Positions 46,283 to 58,110 of a DNA stretch of 64,000 nucleotides are shown one piece after another; position 1 is the stretch's first letter; the number at the start of each line of letters is the position of its first letter. The position numbers and the translations under genes are program-made. The stretch spans positions 1-64,000 of the forward strand of contig JAVZCK010000007.1 in NCBI GenBank assembly GCA_038874435.1, written 5' to 3'. Below the pieces are notes generated by a model. The model saw only the letters and a program-made list of their open reading frames with translations. It was not told the origin of the DNA and searched no databases. This DNA comes from Thermoplasmata archaeon. GTDB lineage: Archaea > Thermoplasmatota > Thermoplasmata > Lutacidiplasmatales > SKW197.

Positions 46283-47605
46283 ATGATATGCCCTATTGAT
46301 TACAGATACGGTCGAGAGGAAATGAAAAGAATTTTTGAAGAAAATTCCCGTCTGGAATACATGTTGCGGGTGGAAGGGGCTCTGGCCTTGGTCCAGGCAG
46401 AGTTTGGAAACATTCCCGCCGAGATGGCAGAGAAAATAAATGAAATGGCAACACAAGAGCATGTGAAGATGGAAAGGGTGAAAGAAATTGAGAACCAGAT
46501 AAAACATGATGTGATGGCGCTGGTTAAGGCACTCTCAGAGGTTTCGGAAGAAGCAGGTAAATATGTGCATCTCGGTGCCACCTCCAATGACATCATTGAC
46601 ACAGCTAATGCCCTCCAGATAAAAGATGGGCTTGAAATAATACTTAAAGGACTTGGAGAACTCAGGCGTGTCCTTCTCGCCATTGCAAAAGAACACAGAA
46701 ATACTGTGATGATTGGGAGGACACATGGCCAGCATGCTGTGCCCATCACATTTGGCCTGAAAATGGCTGTGTTTGCTACAGAGGTAGCAAGACATGAAGA
46801 GAGGATTCGACAAGGCATACCCAGATTCTGTGTTGGAAAACTTCTCGGGGCTGTTGGAACAGGTGCAGCCCTCGGACCAAATGCTCTCAAAATCCAGGAA
46901 AAACTGATGGAGAAGCTTGGAATCTGGGCCGAAAATGGGTGTACGCAGGTTGTGGGTCGAGATAGATACATAGAACTTGTCTGTCTTCTCGCCAACATTG
47001 CAACCACATGCGAAAAATTTGCAACTGAAATTCGCAACCTTCAACGCACAGAAATCAACGAGGTTTCTGAACATTTTGAGGAAACGCAGGTGGGAAGCTC
47101 AACAATGCCTCACAAGAGAAACCCAGTAATGGCTGAGAATATTTGCGGGCTTGCGAGAGTTGTGCGTGCCCTTGTGCTTCCTGCATTTGAGAACAATCTG
47201 ATGTGGCATGAACGCGACCTCACCAACTCCTCTGCAGAGCGCTTTATAATTCCTCATGCATTCATTCTCTGCGACGACATTATTCACAAAACCATTTCCC
47301 TCTTCAGAAAACTGAATGTGAATGCAGAGCAAATGCAGAAAAACATAGAACTCACACAAGGTCTCGTGATGGCTGAGCGTGTAATGATTGAGTTGACAAA
47401 GAAGGGCATGGGACGCCAAGAAGCCCACGAACTTGTGAGAAAACTTTCAATGGAAGCGCTATCAGAAAAAAGGCATCTGAGCGATTTACTTGTGGAAAGA
47501 CAGATTTTTAGCAGAGAAGATGTGGAAAAAATATTTGAGGCAGGGAGTTATGTAGGTGTTGCTCCTGAAATTGTGGACAAAATAATCAAGGAACTTGGTG
47601 ATTGA
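46283..47605 (+). CDS. purB: Adenylosuccinate lyase PurB
   Basis: 440 residues. It acts twice in purine synthesis: SAICAR to AICAR, and adenylosuccinate to AMP, releasing fumarate. The family signature is GSSTMPHKRNP (near residues 271-281). Other motifs are MIGRTHGQHAVP with a catalytic His, and HLGATSNDIIDT. The start ICPIDYRYG matches other PurB N-termini. The frame is open further upstream, but the promoter spacing favours this ATG. The M18 aminopeptidase gene follows after one base. Confidence 0.94.
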   Translation: MICPIDYRYGREEMKRIFEENSRLEYMLRVEGALALVQAEFGNIPAEMAEKINEMATQEHVKMERVKEIENQIKHDVMALVKALSEVSEEAGKYVHLGATSNDIIDTANALQIKDGLEIILKGLGELRRVLLAIAKEHRNTVMIGRTHGQHAVPITFGLKMAVFATEVARHEERIRQGIPRFCVGKLLGAVGTGAALGPNALKIQEKLMEKLGIWAENGCTQVVGRDRYIELVCLLANIATTCEKFATEIRNLQRTEINEVSEHFEETQVGSSTMPHKRNPVMAENICGLARVVRALVLPAFENNLMWHERDLTNSSAERFIIPHAFILCDDIIHKTISLFRKLNVNAEQMQKNIELTQGLVMAERVMIELTKKGMGRQEAHELVRKLSMEALSEKRHLSDLLVERQIFSREDVEKIFEAGSYVGVAPEIVDKIIKELGD

Positions 47606-47606
47606 G

Positions 47607-49010
47607 ATGGCTAAGAAAAGGAAAAAAGAATTGGAAATTAAGAAGAAAAATCTATGGTCTAATCTAAAGAAGGACGAAATAAAGAAAATAGAAGCAACTG
47701 GAGAAAAACTGCTGAGGTTTTTAGAGGCAAAAACAGAACGAGAAGTGGTTGCAAAGGTAAAGGAAATTGCAGAAAAACAGGGTTTTGTGGACATAAACAA
47801 GGTCTCAAAAATTGAGCCGGGAATGAAGTTGTTTGCTGTGAACAGAGAGAAAAGCATTGCGTTGATTGTGGTGGGGCGAAAAAAGATTGTGGAGGGGATG
47901 AACCTCATCGTGTCCCATACTGATGCACCACGACTTGATTTAAAACAGATGCCGCTAGTTGAAGATGCTGTTGCGGACCTCTGTTTCCTTGACACGCACT
48001 ACTATGGCGGAATCAAAAACTACCAATGGGTTTCAACACCTCTTGAACTCAGAGGCGTTTTCGTGTTGGGATCAGGGGAGAAGATAGATGTTTCAGTTGG
48101 TGAGAAAGATGGAATTTACTTCATGATTCCAGACCTTCCGCCGCATTTAGATGATAATGTCCAGGGCAAGAGAAAACTATTGCCTGGGATAAAAGGGGAG
48201 GAACTGAATGTGCTAGCCGGAAGCATTCCGCACGATTCAGATAAGTCCCCACTCAAACTGAATGTGCTCCGCATCCTCAACGAAAAATATGGAATTACGG
48301 AGGAAGATTTCGTTTCTGCAGAACTCGAGTTTGTGCCTGCCTGGAAACCCGCATATCTTGGGTTTGACAGGGGGTTGATTGCTGCCTATGGGCTTGATGA
48401 CAGAGTTTGTGTGTTTGCCTCACTGGAGGCCCTCTTTGGGTTGAAAGTGCCAGATAGAACATGCATTGCCTATGCTGTGGATAAGGAGGAGATTGGGAGC
48501 GACACAAACACCTCTGTCACCTCTTTGTTTTTCGAAAACCTAGTAAAAAAATTAATCCAGCTTGAGAAAGGGCATGCTTGCAGCACCGAAGTTCTAGATG
48601 CTCTCATCAGAACCAAGGCAATTTCTGCAGATGTGAAGCCAGGTGTGGACCCAATTTACAAAGGTGTTTATGATTCCACAAATGCGGTGTATGTAAATCG
48701 TGGAATGTGTTTCACCAGAGGCCCATACCATGGCGGGAAGAAAGGTGCAAATGAAGCAAATGCAGAATTTTTGCACGAAATGAGAGTGATTTTAGACAAA
48801 GCGGGAGTTGCCTGGCAGTTCGGAAATTCTGGAAAAATGGATGAAGGTGGGGGTGGCACAGTCGCAAGATATTTAGCCACCAGAGGAATGGATGTAGTGG
48901 ATGCAGGTGTGCCATTGATTGCAATGCATGCACCTGTGGAGATTGTGGGTAAGGTAGATGTTCATGCCACTGTAAAAGGTTTCAAGGCATTCTTTGAACA
49001 TCCTTTTTAA
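47607..49010 (+). CDS. M18-family aminopeptidase (bacterial aminopeptidase 1 type)
   Basis: 467 residues. It is a zinc aminopeptidase removing N-terminal residues, often acidic ones, from peptides in the cytoplasm. Metal-site motifs: VSHTDAPRLD, GLDDRVC, DKEEIGSDTNTSV, and a C-terminal MHAPVEIVGKVDVHATVKG. Stretches such as DTHYYGGIKNYQW, GEELNVLAGSIPHD and EKYGITEEDFVSAELE closely follow the clostridial aminopeptidase 1 pattern as I recall it. The ATG at 47607 comes one base after the purB stop; an upstream TTG at 47595 is less likely. It could process peptides delivered by the extracellular subtilases (inference). Confidence 0.9.
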   Translation: MAKKRKKELEIKKKNLWSNLKKDEIKKIEATGEKLLRFLEAKTEREVVAKVKEIAEKQGFVDINKVSKIEPGMKLFAVNREKSIALIVVGRKKIVEGMNLIVSHTDAPRLDLKQMPLVEDAVADLCFLDTHYYGGIKNYQWVSTPLELRGVFVLGSGEKIDVSVGEKDGIYFMIPDLPPHLDDNVQGKRKLLPGIKGEELNVLAGSIPHDSDKSPLKLNVLRILNEKYGITEEDFVSAELEFVPAWKPAYLGFDRGLIAAYGLDDRVCVFASLEALFGLKVPDRTCIAYAVDKEEIGSDTNTSVTSLFFENLVKKLIQLEKGHACSTEVLDALIRTKAISADVKPGVDPIYKGVYDSTNAVYVNRGMCFTRGPYHGGKKGANEANAEFLHEMRVILDKAGVAWQFGNSGKMDEGGGGTVARYLATRGMDVVDAGVPLIAMHAPVEIVGKVDVHATVKGFKAFFEHPF

Positions 49011-49137
49011 TGGTTTTTCCAGAATAACATGTAATGCAGATTTCCCCTCTTAGACACTGGTCGCAGGTGGGAAGTCCACATAGTTTGCAGGTTCTGATTG
49101 CCTGCTTCTGACAGATGTGGCAAATACCAGTTAGCAT
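48982..49137 (-). CDS. Small zinc-finger protein, four CxxC pairs
   Basis: 51 residues starting MLTGICHICQ. Its cysteines are in CHIC, CKLC, CDQC and CITC, which can hold two zinc ions in a treble-clef or HIT/B-box-like fold. The C-terminus is basic (GKTIKKDVQR). The ATG is one base after the stop of the DUF59 gene, the same coupling seen at L37e-PurF. The frame ends in a TGA that overlaps the convergent aminopeptidase gene by 29 bases. I do not recognise a named family. The regular cysteine pattern and the coupling argue for a real gene. Confidence 0.75.
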   Translation of the reverse strand: MLTGICHICQKQAIRTCKLCGLPTCDQCLRGEICITCYSGKTIKKDVQRMP

Positions 49138-49138
49138 G

Positions 49139-49429
49139 TCAATCTTTTTTCAATTGCTCAGTAATTTCCTTTGCGGAAACATGACCTTCCACACGCATAT
49201 CAATGCCCTTTACCCCTGCTATTCCCTTGACTTTATTCTTTATGTCAAATGCAATTCTCACGCCCAGAGGACAGAATGGAGAGGAAGGTACGAAAACCAG
49301 GTGCACAATTCCATCCTTCACACTTAGATTCTGCACCAGACCCATGTCCATAACGCTTATTCCTGTCTCCGGATCAAGAACTTCATTCAACTGCTTTGCC
49401 ACTTCAAGTTCCAATTCCTTATCATCCAT
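49139..49429 (-). CDS. MIP18/DUF59 family protein (iron-sulfur cluster assembly, SufT/PaaD-like)
   Basis: 96 residues. The family core is visible: LNEVLDPETGISVMDMGLV, then VHLVFVPSSPFCPLG with the conserved cysteine, then GVKGIDMRVEGH. Members help to deliver or mature iron-sulfur clusters; the exact partner is unknown here. The ATG at 49429 follows AGGTGG by about 5 bases, and an in-frame GTG at 49438 lies inside that site. It is coupled to the small zinc-finger gene downstream. Confidence 0.9.
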   Translation of the reverse strand: MDDKELELEVAKQLNEVLDPETGISVMDMGLVQNLSVKDGIVHLVFVPSSPFCPLGVRIAFDIKNKVKGIAGVKGIDMRVEGHVSAKEITEQLKKD

Positions 49430-49439
49430 TTTTTCCACC

Positions 49440-50154: not shown

Positions 50155-50703
50155 ATGGTAAAAATAAAAATAGAAAATGTGGTTGCAAGCACATCACTGG
50201 ATGGAGACCTCGACCTTCAGAGAATAGCAAATGCACTTGACGGTGCAGAATATGAGCCAGAGCAGTTTCCAGGTCTCATTTATCGGCTCTCAGAGCCAAA
50301 AACAGCCACCCTTCTCTTTAGAAGTGGAAAAGTCGTCTGCACGGGTGCAAAGAGCATTGAAGATGTGCGAAAAGCCATTTTTACTGTGGCTGAGCAAATT
50401 GAGAAGGCAGGTGTCAGAATCAACAAGAAGCCAGAAATTGAAATCCAGAACATTGTTGCTTCCTCAGACCTTGAACAGGAGATAAACCTGAACGCAATTG
50501 CGATAAGTTTGGGGCTTGAGAAGGTAGAGTATGAGCCTGAGCAATTCCCAGGGCTTGTTTACCGTCTGGACAATCCCAAAGTCGTGGTTTTGTTATTTGG
50601 TTCAGGGAAACTCGTATGCACGGGTGCAAGGGTGCCTGAGGATGTCGAGCATGCAGTTGAGAAAATAATGGAGGAACTGCGTGCTGTGGATTTGCTGAGA
50701 TAA
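50155..50703 (+). CDS. tbp: TATA-binding protein (TBP)
   Basis: 182 residues, the normal archaeal length. Two imperfect direct repeats of about 90 residues form the saddle that binds and bends TATA boxes. Each has IxNxVAS, the stretch YEPEQFPGLxYRL, and SGKxVCTGA (residues about 7-90 and 98-180). It recruits TFB and RNA polymerase to promoters such as those listed here. It is followed after 2 bases by the TIM-barrel hydrolase gene. Confidence 0.96.
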   Translation: MVKIKIENVVASTSLDGDLDLQRIANALDGAEYEPEQFPGLIYRLSEPKTATLLFRSGKVVCTGAKSIEDVRKAIFTVAEQIEKAGVRINKKPEIEIQNIVASSDLEQEINLNAIAISLGLEKVEYEPEQFPGLVYRLDNPKVVVLLFGSGKLVCTGARVPEDVEHAVEKIMEELRAVDLLR

Positions 50704-51546: not shown

Positions 51547-54500
51547 TCATGGTTTTCTTCTGCCTTTCTCGCTCTGTGTTTTTCTGGCGAGGATGGGAAG
51601 AATGACCATGAGTAAGACTCCGAGATTGGAGAAAACTGAGGTTTCGATTATGGGATACCAGTCGCTTGCACCTGCACCACCGTCAATGGGATAAGCACCT
51701 GCTGTGCCCCAGCCATTCCCGTCCCAGTTACTCCAGTAGTTGCCTTCCTGAATTGTGTTGTTATACCATATGTTCCCACCCACACTATCGTATGCCTGGC
51801 AGTTGCCAGAAACACCCTTGCCCGCACCGTTGTTGCCAATGAAGTAGTTGTAGTAGATGTAGTTGCCTGTAGAACTGGATGTGATGTACACTCCGTAGTT
51901 TGTGTTGTTGCAAATCCAGTTATATGTAATAAGGTTGTTGGATGAAAAAGACAAGTAGATGCCACGGTTGGAGTTACTCGAAACATTGTTGTTTGTGATG
52001 TTATTGTTGCTTGAGGAAGACAAGTAGATGCCATAGGGGTTACCAGATACATTGTTATTGATTATGGTATTGTTTGTGCTTGAAGAATACAAATAGATGC
52101 CGTATTGTGAACAACCAGAGACAACGTTTCCTCTTACGGTATTGTTGGATGATGTGCGGAGATAGATGCCATTTTTAGCACTATAAAATTTGTTGTTTTC
52201 TATAGCGTTATTGTCTGAATAGTATGTGTAAATGCCATTGGTATTTGGAAAGTTAGATGCATAGTTACCTATTATGTTGTTATATTTGGAGTATTCCATG
52301 TAGATACCCTCGTAACTGGCACTGATATTGTTGTCTGTTATGTTAGTGTAGTTTGCATTAGACAAGATGATGCAATAATATCCGATGCTGGAAATATAGT
52401 TATTCCTTATGTTGTTGAATCTAGCGTTAGAGTATAGATAAATTCCGCTGTACCTACATCCATTGCAACTGCAGTTTTCAATTGTGCCGTTTTGCACATT
52501 ATTTAGTGCGATGGCGTTACCATTCGTCATACTGTTTCCATCAGTTGCGTTGTATAGATTGCAATTTCGTATCACGAAATACGCATCCGTGTTTTCAATC
52601 CAGATGCAATATATCCCACCATTTGCGTCTATTTCCCATCCCTCTATTAAGTAGGGGTCTGCTTGTGTTCCTGAGCCGCCGACGACTCCGTTTACGGGTG
52701 TAAATTCACCGTTGTTGGTTATGTGGATAGGTCCCCTTTTGATATGTAAAGGATACCAGTCGCTTGCACCTGCACCACCGTCAATGGGATAGGCACTTGG
52801 TGTGCCCCATCCGAGATTATTCCAGTTACTCCAGTAGTTCCCTTCTTTAGATGAATTATTGTACCAGTTGTTGCCACCACAATTATCGTACGCCTGACAA
52901 TTGCCAGAGATCCCCTTGGTTGCACCATTGTTGCCGATGAAGTTGTTGTGATGAATTGTGTTGTCTATGGAGCCAGATGTGATGTAAACGCCATAGTTTG
53001 TGTTATTGCAAATCCAGTTGTAAGTTATACTATTGCTGTTGGAGGCGGACAAGTAAATGCCATAGTTTGTGTTGTTAGAGACAGTGTTGTTTGATATATT
53101 GTTGTAGTTACTCGAGGATGCCAAGTGGATGCCGTATTTAGAGTTGTCTGTGGCTTTGTTGTTTGCGATGGTGTTGTTGCTTGAGGAATACAAGTAGATG
53201 TCATAGTTAGTATTTCCAGAGGCATTGTTGCTTGTTATGTTGTTGTTGTTTGAAGAGTACAAGAGGATGCCGTGATTAGCGTTGCCAGAGACCGTGTTGT
53301 TTGTTATGTTGTTGTAGTTGCTTGAGGAATACAAATAGACGCCGAATTGGTTGTTGTTAGAGGCATTGTTGTTTGTTATGTTATTGTAGTTGCTTGAGGA
53401 ATACAAGTAGATACCGTATTGGGTGTTGCCATATGCATTGTTGTTTGTTATGTTATTGTATTGAGAAGAACCGTAGAGATAAATCCCACGGTTTGAGTTG
53501 TTGCACTTGTTGTTTTCCAGGAAGCCATTTCTCATATTGTTCAATGTGATTCCTGCTCCATAAGGCACACTGCCTGCATTTGTTGCATTGTAAACTGTAC
53601 AATTTCTTACAACAAAGTAAACATCAGTATTTTCAATCCAGATACAATAAGTGCCTCCTTTAGCATCTATTTCCCAGTCCCCTATAATGTATGGGTCATT
53701 TTGTGTCCCAGAACCTCTTATCACTCCATTCTCTGCAGTGAACTCGTTATTGTTGGTTATGTGGATTGGAGTATGCAATCCTGCACTTCGGAGGGGGTAC
53801 CAGTCACTTGCACCAACACCGCCATCAAGTGGGTAAGCATTTGTAGTGCCCCAGCCTTGCCCATTCCAATTGCTCCAGTAATTGCCTTCCTGGATTGTGT
53901 TGTTGTACCATGTGTTTCCACTCACACTATCGTATGCCTGGCATTTGCCATCACTTATGCCTTTACTCGCTCCTTTGTTGCCTATAAAGTTGTTGTGATG
54001 GAGAATGTTGGCAATGGCACTGCTGGCAATATAAACACCGTAATTTGCGTTATTGCGAAGCCAATTGTAAGTTAGAATATTGCTTTGGGAGCTATACAGG
54101 TAAATACCGTACTGGTTGTTGCTGGAGACATTGTTGTTTGTTATTTTATTGTAGTTGCATGAAGAAAACAAGAGAAGGCCGTGTTGTGTGTTGCCAAAGG
54201 CATTGTTGTTTGTTATGTTATTGTAGTTGCTTGAGGAATACAAGTAAATACCGCTGTAGGAGTTGCCAAAGGCATTGTTGTTTGTTATGTTGTTGTAGGT
54301 GTTTGAGGAAGACAATTGGATACCGTATTTGTTGCTAGAAACATTGTTGTTTGCGATGTTGTTGTAGCTTGAGGCCTCTATGTAGATGCCATTGTTAGTA
54401 TTCCCTGAAGCATTGTTGTTTGCGATGTTGTTGTGGCTTGAGGAATACAATAAGATACCCTGATTGGTGTTGCCAAAGGCATTGTTGTTTGTTATGTTGT

Positions 54501-57500
54501 TGGAGTTACTTGGGGAATATACATAGATGCCGAATTGGTTGTTAGAGGCATTGTTGTTTGTTATGTTATTGTATTGAGAAGAACCGTAGAGATAAATCCC
54601 ACGGTTTGAGTTGTTGCACCTGTTGTTTTCTATGCATCCATTTGTCACATTGTTCAACGCAATCCCAGCACCTGTAGGAGCACTAGTAGTACTTGTTGCT
54701 CTGTAAAGTGTGCAATTGCGCACAACAAAGTATGCTGTTGTGTTCTCCACCCATATTGCGTACGGCCCTCCATTAGCATCAATGTCCCAGCCATCTATTA
54801 TGTACGGGTCTGCCGATGTGCCAGAGCCACTTACAACTCCATTTGCACCGGTAAATTGGCTGTCGCCATTTATGTGGATTGGTGCATGCGATGTGCCCCT
54901 TGTCTCAACATTCGTCTCTATATTCTGCTGTTGAATCTTTCCTGCTCTGTAAGCAAACTCGCTCGCATCTTTTTCGCCAATCCAATTTGTCATCTCAAAG
55001 TAGAATTTCGTGTCGGTGTTAAGGCCAGCTAGTGCTGTTCCTGCAACACTGAACTCTATTTTTCCATCGCTCAAACCATGAGCAATGTTTGGATTCTGGA
55101 TTTCCTCTGACATTACTCCATTCTCCCACTTCCAGACCCTTTCACTTACAACCTGACCATTTCTGCCCTGCAACTCAATCAAATAACCATGGGAAATCAT
55201 TGCTGGATTGAATGTGTTGATTGTGGAATTCATCAAATCAATGTAAACCCTTGCCACATCCATGCCCAGATTTTCTTTTATCACCACTGGCGTTGGTGGT
55301 CCTGGTTGCACTGGTGGTCTGGCACCAAGCACAGGGATTTCGCAGCCAGCAAGCATTGTACCATCCACTGCCATATAGAAGTATGCATTGCTTGCAATTG
55401 CACTTGCATACTCCCGCAAATCAATGTTTTTAGTTACATCGCCTGGCACATCAACACCTTTCTGCACACCCTGCCAGTCACCAAATGCACCGTCTATAAC
55501 AATCCCAGAAGGCAGAGAACCAAAGTATGCTTTGCCACCGTTGCCCACAATTCTGTAGGGCACGTTTGTGTCAACGCTGGAAACTGCAAACGCATACGCA
55601 TTACCATCACTCAAGCTCTTTGCCTTGCATCTCACAGTAAGTTCTTCGTTCACTGCAATGTCCTTCTTCGGTAAACTCACATTCGCATTTGCCACGCTTA
55701 TGCTTTCCACATGCACATCCTTACCCTTTGCAATCAATCTTAGCTCGAGCACATCAGCATCTGCATATACCACATCATTGCCAATAAAATTCTGGTAAAC
55801 CACTAAACTTCCTTCAGTTTTGCTCACCAGCGCCATGCCCCGTTTCTCTGCATAAACACTGCCCTCATAGTGTCGCATCGCAACAAGGCCTATTGGCTCT
55901 GTCATTCCTGTAATCTTCGCACTTCCTTCAACAATGTTCCCGCTTTTCTCCACGACCACACCGCCAACACTTTCCCAGGCACTGTAATTCAATTCTGGCT
56001 TTATAGATGTACTCCCTTCTTTAAACACTGCCACTGATGAAGTATGAATGTTGCCATTGAATCCGCTAATCTCTATCTTTGCATCTGCTCCTATGTTCTC
56101 CACCCTGTAGCCAGTGTTTGGATTCCTGTCCTTGTCGATAAACAGAACAAGGGTATCATAGCCACTGTTTGCACCATTAAACGCAGTGCCAGCAACTTTC
56201 ACATAGAAATAGCATTTTTCATTGCTATAATAAATGCTGTATTCTGTGATTTTTATGTCTGGGTTTGCAAAGTCCTCACTGTCTTTATAAACCGCAAGCC
56301 CCTGCCAATCATCTATGTTTCCATCCACCTTAATTTTTTCTGAAGGAATCGTGAAAAGCCAGAATGCAAAAACTGAGATGGCAATTACCACAACCACAAG
56401 TCCCACAACAACCTGTTTTACCCGGCTAACTTTTGCTGGTCTTTGCCTCATGCCAGGTTTCTTCAATCCGTTTACATACCCTGGCTTCCGCTTTCCAAGT
56501 CCATTGGTGTAGGCCTCTCTCGCAGTCACACTCTTCTTCAACCCATTTGTAAATGCTTCCCTGCTAACTAGCTCTTTTGTTTTCACTTCTTCTGGCTTTT
56601 CCTCAGTAACCTCTTCTGCTTCTACTTCTTCAACAACCTCTGGCTCTACTTCCACTACCTTTGCTTTCTTTCTCTCTTTTCCAATTTCCTTACCTTTTAG
56701 CTCCATGTCAAAACTTTTCGAAAGCACATAGAGTTTCTCCTGCTCTATGCTCTTGTCATTTATCACAGCCAGAACCGTGTTGCCGTTCACCGCAGCCATG
56801 TCACCAATTTTCTTCAGAAACTTAACAACCTTATCAAAGCCATTTTCAAGGATGAGGGTTTCAATGCAGTCAAGAACCAGCACACCATTCTTATTGTTTT
56901 TAAGGAAAATAGCCACTTCCCGCATCAACTCAAATTCCATCCTGCCTGGCTTCACTGCACCTTTCTCTGAGGATTCCGAAATCCACAGCACATCTGACTC
57001 AAATTTGTGCATTTTTTTGAGCTTATCAGGAAATGTGGTACTCACACAAAGTCCAGTTGCTCCCTCTGAGAGAAATTCACTGTATAGCTTGTAAATGTAG
57101 TTGGGCCTGTTTTCGTAAACAAGGACACTTGAGCCCCTCATATCTTCAAGATTCTCGCTGAGTTCTGCTTCCTCTTCTGGCTCTTCCTCTACCGCTTTCT
57201 TTACGACTTTCTTCACTTCTGGCTTCGGTTTTGGTTTTGGCTCATCCTCATCCATGATTACAATGCATTTTGTCTTGCTCACGCCTATCTTTTTGTAAGC
57301 GGTCTCATAAAAAAGATTGTCAAGCGAGATAATCCCAATTTTTGCGACAATCCTGTCTGCTTCCCTGCTGTGCTCGATGTCCAGCACACCATTAAAGTGT
57401 GGATGAAATGCGGAAACTACTTTTTGTTCATGCGTTGTCTTTGAAATCTTGAACAGAGCACCACCACTGTACTTTTTGATTCTTGCGGTCAGCCCTTGCG

Positions 57501-57966
57501 AAAATTTAAAAGCGGTTTCGAACCCAAAGACCTTAATCACATTTGATAGAATATCAGAATAAACCCTGAATTGTTTTCCTTCAATTTTTTTCAGAATTTT
57601 CGAAATTGCAATCTCCACATTTGTTAAACTCTTCGAGCATTTGTAAATTGCGCCTTTTTCCTCTAGCCCGATTATTCTTTCATTTCTGAAGGAATACCAG
57701 TCCACAATGTAGAGCGTTCCATTCTTTTCATGGGTCTCAGCATTAATACCAATTGCACTCATCAGTTTTTTGAAATCTTCTGGAGAACTTTCTGAGAGTA
57801 CAGCGATACAGATTTCGCCTTTGATGAGTGCCTCTTTTATATACTGTCTTACAAGCAGGTCTGTTTCTAAACCTTCATCTGTTTGCAACAACAGCATATA
57901 ATTTGAAGGAATGCCTTCCTCAACCAGTTTATTTATGCCTTCAATTTCAATCTTGCCAGTATCCAT
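51547..57966 (-). CDS. Giant bitopic protein: degenerate KaiC-like domain and DUF835 inside, stalk and three NosD-like beta-helix modules outside
   Basis: About 2139 residues. Residues 1-235 have the RecA/KaiC fold pattern but a ruined P-loop (LQTDEGLET at 27-35 where GxxGxGKT is expected). DUF835 follows at about 285-425 (VLVLDCIETLIL, FLKKIGDMAAVNGNTVLAVI). A linker repeats REAF/YTNGL units, and one membrane span lies at about 517-541. No signal peptide exists, so these domains should be cytoplasmic. Outside are beta-sandwich domains of the VDGxxxDW type (about 545-1020), homologous in order to the stalk of the protein at 2946. Three modules of about 350-370 residues follow, rich in NNITNNNxxxN repeats (NosD/right-handed beta-helix). 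A C-terminal span is near 2112-2130. The ATG at 57966 follows GGGGGG; an upstream TTG at 58008 is less likely. It may link surface contact to a cytoplasmic signal (inference). Confidence 0.85.
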   Translation of the reverse strand: MDTGKIEIEGINKLVEEGIPSNYMLLLQTDEGLETDLLVRQYIKEALIKGEICIAVLSESSPEDFKKLMSAIGINAETHEKNGTLYIVDWYSFRNERIIGLEEKGAIYKCSKSLTNVEIAISKILKKIEGKQFRVYSDILSNVIKVFGFETAFKFSQGLTARIKKYSGGALFKISKTTHEQKVVSAFHPHFNGVLDIEHSREADRIVAKIGIISLDNLFYETAYKKIGVSKTKCIVIMDEDEPKPKPKPEVKKVVKKAVEEEPEEEAELSENLEDMRGSSVLVYENRPNYIYKLYSEFLSEGATGLCVSTTFPDKLKKMHKFESDVLWISESSEKGAVKPGRMEFELMREVAIFLKNNKNGVLVLDCIETLILENGFDKVVKFLKKIGDMAAVNGNTVLAVINDKSIEQEKLYVLSKSFDMELKGKEIGKERKKAKVVEVEPEVVEEVEAEEVTEEKPEEVKTKELVSREAFTNGLKKSVTAREAYTNGLGKRKPGYVNGLKKPGMRQRPAKVSRVKQVVVGLVVVVIAISVFAFWLFTIPSEKIKVDGNIDDWQGLAVYKDSEDFANPDIKITEYSIYYSNEKCYFYVKVAGTAFNGANSGYDTLVLFIDKDRNPNTGYRVENIGADAKIEISGFNGNIHTSSVAVFKEGSTSIKPELNYSAWESVGGVVVEKSGNIVEGSAKITGMTEPIGLVAMRHYEGSVYAEKRGMALVSKTEGSLVVYQNFIGNDVVYADADVLELRLIAKGKDVHVESISVANANVSLPKKDIAVNEELTVRCKAKSLSDGNAYAFAVSSVDTNVPYRIVGNGGKAYFGSLPSGIVIDGAFGDWQGVQKGVDVPGDVTKNIDLREYASAIASNAYFYMAVDGTMLAGCEIPVLGARPPVQPGPPTPVVIKENLGMDVARVYIDLMNSTINTFNPAMISHGYLIELQGRNGQVVSERVWKWENGVMSEEIQNPNIAHGLSDGKIEFSVAGTALAGLNTDTKFYFEMTNWIGEKDASEFAYRAGKIQQQNIETNVETRGTSHAPIHINGDSQFTGANGVVSGSGTSADPYIIDGWDIDANGGPYAIWVENTTAYFVVRNCTLYRATSTTSAPTGAGIALNNVTNGCIENNRCNNSNRGIYLYGSSQYNNITNNNASNNQFGIYVYSPSNSNNITNNNAFGNTNQGILLYSSSHNNIANNNASGNTNNGIYIEASSYNNIANNNVSSNKYGIQLSSSNTYNNITNNNAFGNSYSGIYLYSSSNYNNITNNNAFGNTQHGLLLFSSCNYNKITNNNVSSNNQYGIYLYSSQSNILTYNWLRNNANYGVYIASSAIANILHHNNFIGNKGASKGISDGKCQAYDSVSGNTWYNNTIQEGNYWSNWNGQGWGTTNAYPLDGGVGASDWYPLRSAGLHTPIHITNNNEFTAENGVIRGSGTQNDPYIIGDWEIDAKGGTYCIWIENTDVYFVVRNCTVYNATNAGSVPYGAGITLNNMRNGFLENNKCNNSNRGIYLYGSSQYNNITNNNAYGNTQYGIYLYSSSNYNNITNNNASNNNQFGVYLYSSSNYNNITNNTVSGNANHGILLYSSNNNNITSNNASGNTNYDIYLYSSSNNTIANNKATDNSKYGIHLASSSNYNNISNNTVSNNTNYGIYLSASNSNSITYNWICNNTNYGVYITSGSIDNTIHHNNFIGNNGATKGISGNCQAYDNCGGNNWYNNSSKEGNYWSNWNNLGWGTPSAYPIDGGAGASDWYPLHIKRGPIHITNNGEFTPVNGVVGGSGTQADPYLIEGWEIDANGGIYCIWIENTDAYFVIRNCNLYNATDGNSMTNGNAIALNNVQNGTIENCSCNGCRYSGIYLYSNARFNNIRNNYISSIGYYCIILSNANYTNITDNNISASYEGIYMEYSKYNNIIGNYASNFPNTNGIYTYYSDNNAIENNKFYSAKNGIYLRTSSNNTVRGNVVSGCSQYGIYLYSSSTNNTIINNNVSGNPYGIYLSSSSNNNITNNNVSSNSNRGIYLSFSSNNLITYNWICNNTNYGVYITSSSTGNYIYYNYFIGNNGAGKGVSGNCQAYDSVGGNIWYNNTIQEGNYWSNWDGNGWGTAGAYPIDGGAGASDWYPIIETSVFSNLGVLLMVILPILARKTQSEKGRRKP
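51640..54900 (-). repeat. Three tandem NosD-like beta-helix modules with short internal repeats
   Basis: The modules cover about 54900-53790, 53785-52740 and 52735-51640. Each starts with PIHIxxxxxFT and xNGVxxGSGT, then GGxYxIWxENTxxYFVxRNC. Each ends with CQAYD, NxWYNN, EGNYWSNW and GASDWYP. Inside, units of about 22-24 codons (YLYSSSNYNNITNNNASGN type) repeat many times, giving high DNA-level repetition and a T/G-rich plus strand. Confidence 0.8.
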
Positions 57967-58110
57967 ATTTTGCCCCCCATAACTCCCATATCCTGGTGAG
58001 GAAGACAAATCCTCCCCATTATACAGGTGTTTTGAAGTGCAGGTGTCAGCAGTAATAAAGCCCCCATAGTAAATAAATCTTTGCCAATAGACAGAAAAAA
58101 TTGATGGGAA

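Follow-up and report, generated by a model that had tools for sequence, protein, structure and literature searches.

The first 64,000 nucleotides of contig JAVZCK010000007.1 (assembly GCA_038874435.1, Thermoplasmata archaeon), hereafter the window, carry on the minus strand a 51-codon frame located between a DUF59 gene and a convergent M18 aminopeptidase gene (Table 1). This frame, the finger gene, is a genuine gene and its protein is under selection. Its product, which is very probably a zinc finger, is one member of a small-protein family spread across an archaeal phylum, and the association with DUF59 is observed in this genus alone, within the loci searched. We hold these three statements, taken jointly, with high confidence. 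The family is real and widely kept; its role is a proposal, and the suggested link to iron-sulphur (Fe-S) chemistry is weak.

The 51-codon frame and its orthologue

The minus-strand translation of 48982-49137 (MLTGICHICQKQAIRTCKLCGLPTCDQCLRGEICITCYSGKTIKKDVQRMP followed by a stop) includes four CxxC pairs (CHIC, CKLC, CDQC and CITC). The eight cysteine ligands are spaced C..C-x7-C..C-x4-C..C-x5-C..C, the last pair corresponding to C34 and C37. The tail, SGKTIKKDVQRMP, is basic and the protein ends with RMP. Upstream, the DUF59 frame ends at 49139 and is followed by a spacer base at 49138 and by the finger ATG at 49137. At the other end, the finger gene runs into the convergent M18 gene and covers its final 29 bases. 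A previous model reading of the letters and open frames (the sequence-only reading) had described the frame, giving no strand, with its CxxC pairs, one-base spacer, basic tail and overlap, and had named both neighbours. Translation and Pfam scores above cut-off (Table 1) agree with this description.

The comparison genome (G001) is one other genome of the same genus. Its orthologue has an open frame, is 71% identical (36 of 51 residues), keeps all eight cysteines and shows the same one-base spacer and 29-base overlap with M18. Differences between the two genes are distributed over codon positions 1, 2 and 3 as 9, 6 and 27 (chi-square p ~1e-4), and as 8, 6 and 25 outside the M18 overlap. The DUF59 partners are 95% identical. 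A single frame of the real window carries the eight-ligand motif, which is absent from all 60 random windows generated with the window's length and dinucleotide frequencies. By chance, all eight cysteines would lie within the 36 identical positions with a probability of about 0.05, so that their conservation in this pair is weak evidence; the wider family provides a stronger case. The sequence-only reading had proposed that this small gene is real and had named stop codons or lost cysteines in relatives as evidence against it; the G001 copy is intact with its eight cysteines, and seven cysteines are kept at all relatives' loci analysed below. Separately, a second and weak match to the finger profile in G001 (contig C55, 89806-89886) is interrupted by a stop codon.

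Distribution and ligand pattern of the family

Three successive profiles were used. In the class, 146 of 300 genomes matched a 2-row profile at E<=0.05, a count that includes weak matches. With an 18-row profile, 84 of the 103 genomes of the order matched at E<=0.01 (80 clearly and 4 by weak matches only); 80 of the 84 have a single match and four have two. A 61-row profile matched at least 182 of the 389 phylum genomes at E<=0.001, probably a lower bound with at most 16 candidates scored per genome among the matches listed. Many genomes outside the class include two or more finger matches, and the family is therefore not single-copy everywhere. The placement of the class in the Thermoplasmata is deduced from mcrA, present in two of its families (13 of 110 genomes), together with genome sizes and the archaeal character of the neighbouring genes. 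Genus g4 of family f2, represented by five genomes (G004, G006, G015, G033 and G091), gave no finger match with the 18-row profile. The finger is present in most of family f2 outside this genus, and its absence from g4 suggests a likely lineage loss.

The family was analysed at 101 loci: that of the window, 60 from the class (spread over genera, yet with 8 from genus g2) and 40 further loci, 32 of them outside the class. The predicted proteins, whose start codons were chosen by script, are 40-80 residues long. They follow the pattern CxxC-x7-CxxC-x4-Cxx[C/H]-x5..7-CxxC. A relaxed version, C..C-x6..8-C..C-x4-C..[CH]-x4..9-C..C, fits 97 of the 101 loci; aspartate occupies the eighth ligand place at the other four (L101, L116, L187 and L216). 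Seven cysteines are kept at every locus, and the corresponding columns are invariant in all 61 aligned sequences. This pattern agrees with the zinc-finger character assigned by the sequence-only reading, and the protein probably binds zinc.

Some tails end with a hydrophobic-[Y/F/L]-X motif (VYR, VYH, VYS, LLR or LLH). These represent 16 of the 101 loci, whereas shuffling 100 tails 2000 times gave a mean of 1.6 and at most 8, a null that does not control for kinship among loci. Strict hydrophobic-Tyr-X tails are observed at 5 of 101 loci (shuffle mean 0.55, maximum 4). Members with the motif include L104, L107, L110 and L118 from family f9, and L108, L129, L133, L150 and L220 from family f22. 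The window finger does not carry a hydrophobic-Tyr-X tail.

The window finger scored above cut-off with no Pfam or NCBIfam family, and NCBIfam gave nothing consistent across the family. No name for the family was found in the Pfam and NCBIfam copies or among the open-licence papers listed on archaeal small zinc fingers and B-boxes. The family is intact through an archaeal phylum yet lacks a model in the copies searched, and its members are short enough for gene callers to drop.

Type of finger

The closest Pfam profiles all remain under cut-off: zf-B_box (PF00643, 17.6 bits for a cut-off of 24.1), ANCHR-like_BBOX (PF22586, 16.4 for 27) and zf-HIT (PF04438, 14.9 for 24.7). Among 61 members scanned at E<=0.01, 44 match the ANCHR-like B-box, 26 the B-box, 14 HIT and 12 C5HCH. 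In a separate scan of ten relatives, two exceed the ANCHR-like cut-off (28.2 and 27.1 bits) and one of these also exceeds that of the B-box (27.5). The best PDB sequence neighbours are PML B-box1 and the C5HCH domains of NSD1 and NSD2 (E 7e-4 to 3e-3). The natural reading of these profiles and of a structural model is a predicted two-zinc cross-brace finger of the treble-clef type (B-box/HIT/FYVE-like).

Several points weigh against the reading proposed here. The dN/dS ratio (non-synonymous to synonymous substitution rates) of the window and G001 fingers varies with the method, being 0.055 with NG86 (dN 0.163, dS 2.93, saturated) and 0.36 with YN00 (0.46 without the overlap), and its exact value should not be leaned on. 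The cysteine conservation over the 101 loci is partly circular because these loci were chosen by profile match. Zinc binding is predicted from the ligand pattern. The fold match is weak: the AlphaFold2 model has a mean pLDDT (predicted local distance difference test) of 79.4 and a pTM (predicted template modelling score) of 0.55, and Foldseek returned no match below E 0.49. Realignment of the model to 316 of the top Foldseek chains gave a best Z of 4.0 and a Z of 2.8 for PML B-box1. The chains listed in this realignment include FYVE, RIM, synaptotagmin-like, B-box, HIT, MYND, AN1, PHD, GATA and nuclear-receptor fingers together with other zinc-finger-bearing chains.

Comparison with known fingers shows partial resemblances. 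B-box models give the family's best profile matches, and the first six ligands are spaced as in B-boxes; however, the window finger ends with a CxxC pair and constitutes the entire protein. B-boxes use histidine at the last ligand pair. The finger has cysteine at this place, the C34 and C37 columns being cysteine in 61 of 61 sequences. The CxxC-x7-CxxC-x4-C core is common to the finger and to zf-HIT, but HIT fingers terminate with HxxxC where the window finger has CxxC.

Small archaeal zinc-finger proteins are already known (PMC11241148, PMC6562870 and PMC10716476, in excerpt). The haloarchaeal C(P)XCG micro-proteins, such as HVO_2753 and HVO_0758, are likewise archaeal, shorter than 70 residues and rich in paired cysteine motifs (same excerpts). 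With 51 residues the window finger falls within this length limit, which about 10 of the 101 loci exceed. Two CxxCG motifs are expected in this group, whereas the window finger has one (CKLCG); many relatives carry two, for example CHICG and CxxCG. HVO_2753 has four motifs, as does the window finger, yet it holds one zinc (PMC10716476, in excerpt). The PDB search at E<=1, a weak one, listed 52 sequences, none of them named as a Haloferax volcanii protein. Kinship with HVO_2753 or another solved archaeal micro-protein was considered and not retained, none appearing among the PDB or fold matches listed in searches too weak to exclude it. Brz of Halobacterium salinarum, likened here by description, is another archaeal zinc-finger protein of small size whose gene directly adjoins one of the same orientation (PMC2253796, in excerpt). 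However, the brz gene precedes its regulatory target bop, while the finger lies downstream of a variable partner.

Gene neighbourhood across relatives

Loci of relatives were taken with about 4 kb on each side, less at contig ends, which can hide neighbours. A simple script called the genes at the 101 loci, giving priority to the longest and most conserved frames. Labels come from a Pfam scan of one representative each (HAD, TPR, GCHY-1, HTH_3, DUF5611, QueC, TtuA-like, PheS, ThyX and PTPS); ValRS, GatE-like, MFS and other labels are our own reading. Since the loci are related by descent, the counts do not represent independent events.

The gene order around the finger changes. A same-strand upstream gene lies within 70 nucleotides at 61 of 101 loci, with a four-nucleotide overlap at 11, and a convergent downstream gene within 70 nucleotides at 71. 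The direct upstream partners (<=70 nucleotides) are HAD (17), HTH_3 (11), GCHY-1, the FolE2/MptA type of GTP cyclohydrolase (8), QueC (6), TPR (4), ThyX (3), MFS-like (3), DUF59 (2), TtuA-like (1) and others (6). Anywhere in the fetched stretch, PheS and TPR genes occur at 27 loci each, HAD at 21, GCHY-1 at 20 and QueC with PTPS/QueD at 6.

DUF59 adjoins the finger only in the window and in G001, 2 of the 101 loci. When the loci of the 100 relatives were searched with a DUF59 profile, the gene was found at two: adjoining the finger at L092 (G001) and about 2.5 kb away at L093. In the reverse direction, the finger profile was run on 30 DUF59 loci from the order (L003-L032), each with 1.5 kb on either side; it recovered the fingers of the window and of G001 alone, the other 28 loci showing no finger. 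The DUF59-finger link is thus, within the loci searched, a trait of this genus. The sequence-only reading had coupled the two genes. The coupling holds in this genus, where the two are probably co-translated, and does not extend beyond it. The possible role in metal handling that had been derived from the partner is not supported, the adjacency not being conserved: the association seen at one locus fails once 100 relatives are read.

Two other arrangements recur. In the class, a block is formed by the FolE2/MptA GTP cyclohydrolase, a HAD phosphatase, the finger and a convergent TPR gene or PheS (L097-L099, L101, L108, L112-L115, L123, L133 and others); its HAD gene could be a pterin-pathway phosphatase. 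Outside the class, an HTH_3 regulator directly precedes the finger at 11 loci (L190-L194, L196, L200-L202, L208 and L210) with gaps of -23 to 14 nucleotides. Candidate HAD-finger fusions, suggested by long upstream frames at some loci of the order (L148, L069, L084 and L088), were rejected, since the upstream part resembles an out-of-frame shadow of the upstream gene and no HAD protein.

Proposed role and alternatives

The finger represents an unnamed family of archaeal micro-proteins, predicted to be made of one two-zinc cross-brace finger and a tail that is short and variable. In this genus, DUF59 and the finger form a two-gene unit with the finger as second cistron. No stretch resembling a ribosome site of its own was seen by eye upstream of the finger ATG in this genus, and the start lies one base past the DUF59 stop; re-initiation by the terminating ribosome is therefore likely, and the finger is probably translated in this way. 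The product may be a two-zinc interaction module expressed with whatever gene precedes it. Since the finger is kept whereas its partner varies, the product is expected to act outside the pathway of any single partner. Rather than serving as a dedicated Fe-S factor, it most likely works independently as a small module for protein-protein (or protein-RNA) binding. The recurrent neighbours lean towards translation or tRNA modification, which is a lean and not a result. A plausible but tentative candidate role is that of adaptor or structural module in a housekeeping complex (translation or tRNA-related). Naming the family would add a small and testable housekeeping candidate.

A dedicated partnership with DUF59 in Fe-S cluster maturation or metal handling appears very unlikely. 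DUF59 proteins do function in Fe-S assembly (PMC4982691, in excerpt), the one-base spacing is present in both genomes of the genus and the only DUF59 gene found in the window's genome, by a search for DUF59 matches, is the finger's neighbour. This arrangement is nevertheless confined to the genus in both directions of search, and the close upstream partners at other loci have different functions. In a second alternative, the finger would assist, as an accessory factor, in tRNA modification or deazapurine/pterin synthesis (preQ0, archaeosine), and this genus would have moved it away from its usual neighbours. The FolE2-type cyclohydrolase at 20 loci and PheS at 27 favour it, as do a TtuA-like thiolase at two and QueC with PTPS/QueD at six, where QueC overlaps the finger start by 4 nucleotides at five loci and by 20 at one (according to our choice of start). 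However, most loci have no such gene in the fetched stretch, shared ancestry makes the counts non-independent, and HAD and HTH_3 are commoner as direct partners. In the window's genome, QueC lies 47 kb from the finger and FolE2 is on another contig. We regard this alternative as unlikely.

Two further alternatives concern the protein itself. The finger might, partly like HVO_2753, fold around a single zinc or without any, and act through charge or RNA contacts; its basic tail is compatible with this. Yet one free site would not call for seven invariant ligands with cysteine or histidine as the eighth at 97 of 101 loci (aspartate at four), which makes this possibility quite unlikely. That the frame, short and overlapping another gene, is a chance open frame without product is hardly credible in view of its conservation in G001 with a third-position bias, the phylum-wide family and its motif being absent from the random windows.

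The hydrophobic-Tyr-X (HbYX) tail is the motif of proteasome activators, which the tails of some members recall. By analogy, some of these, most clearly in family f9, would be tiny zinc-finger ligands of the 20S proteasome binding through the tail, within a phylum-wide family of stand-alone B-box-like two-zinc adaptors. We consider this highly improbable; if true, it would apply to the members with hydrophobic-Tyr-X tails.

Other features of the window

The features of the finger locus are collected in Table 1. The listed start of the DUF59 gene is a GTG at 49438. An alternative ATG at 49429, seen by eye after AGGTGG (49440-49435), looks more likely as a start from the sequence.

Table 1. Position and supporting evidence of the features at the finger locus
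Feature	Positions	Strand	Evidence
Finger gene (51 codons, ATG start, TGA stop)	48982..49137	-	Translation, G001 orthologue, family
Single-base spacer between DUF59 stop and finger ATG	49138	-	One base in G001 also
DUF59 / FeS_assembly_P gene, upstream cistron	49139..49438	-	PF01883, 57.7 bits (cut-off 23.5)
M18 aminopeptidase gene, convergent to finger	47595..49010	+	PF02127, 263.6 bits (cut-off 24), E 4e-78
Tail-to-tail overlap of finger and M18 genes, 29 bases	48982..49010		Same overlap in G001

ARAGORN found no tRNA gene within the window and PADLOC assigned no defence family to the finger protein. On the plus strand, QueC is encoded at 1318-1953 (265.2 bits) and is followed by another frame (2144-2341) whose match to QueC/PP-loop is weak. 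Also on the plus strand, a frame at 50155-50703, divergent from the DUF59-finger pair, resembles the archaeal TATA-binding protein in our own reading. Further along, on the minus strand, a 2153-residue frame (51547-58008) includes many Asn-rich repeats which we read as beta-helix-like.
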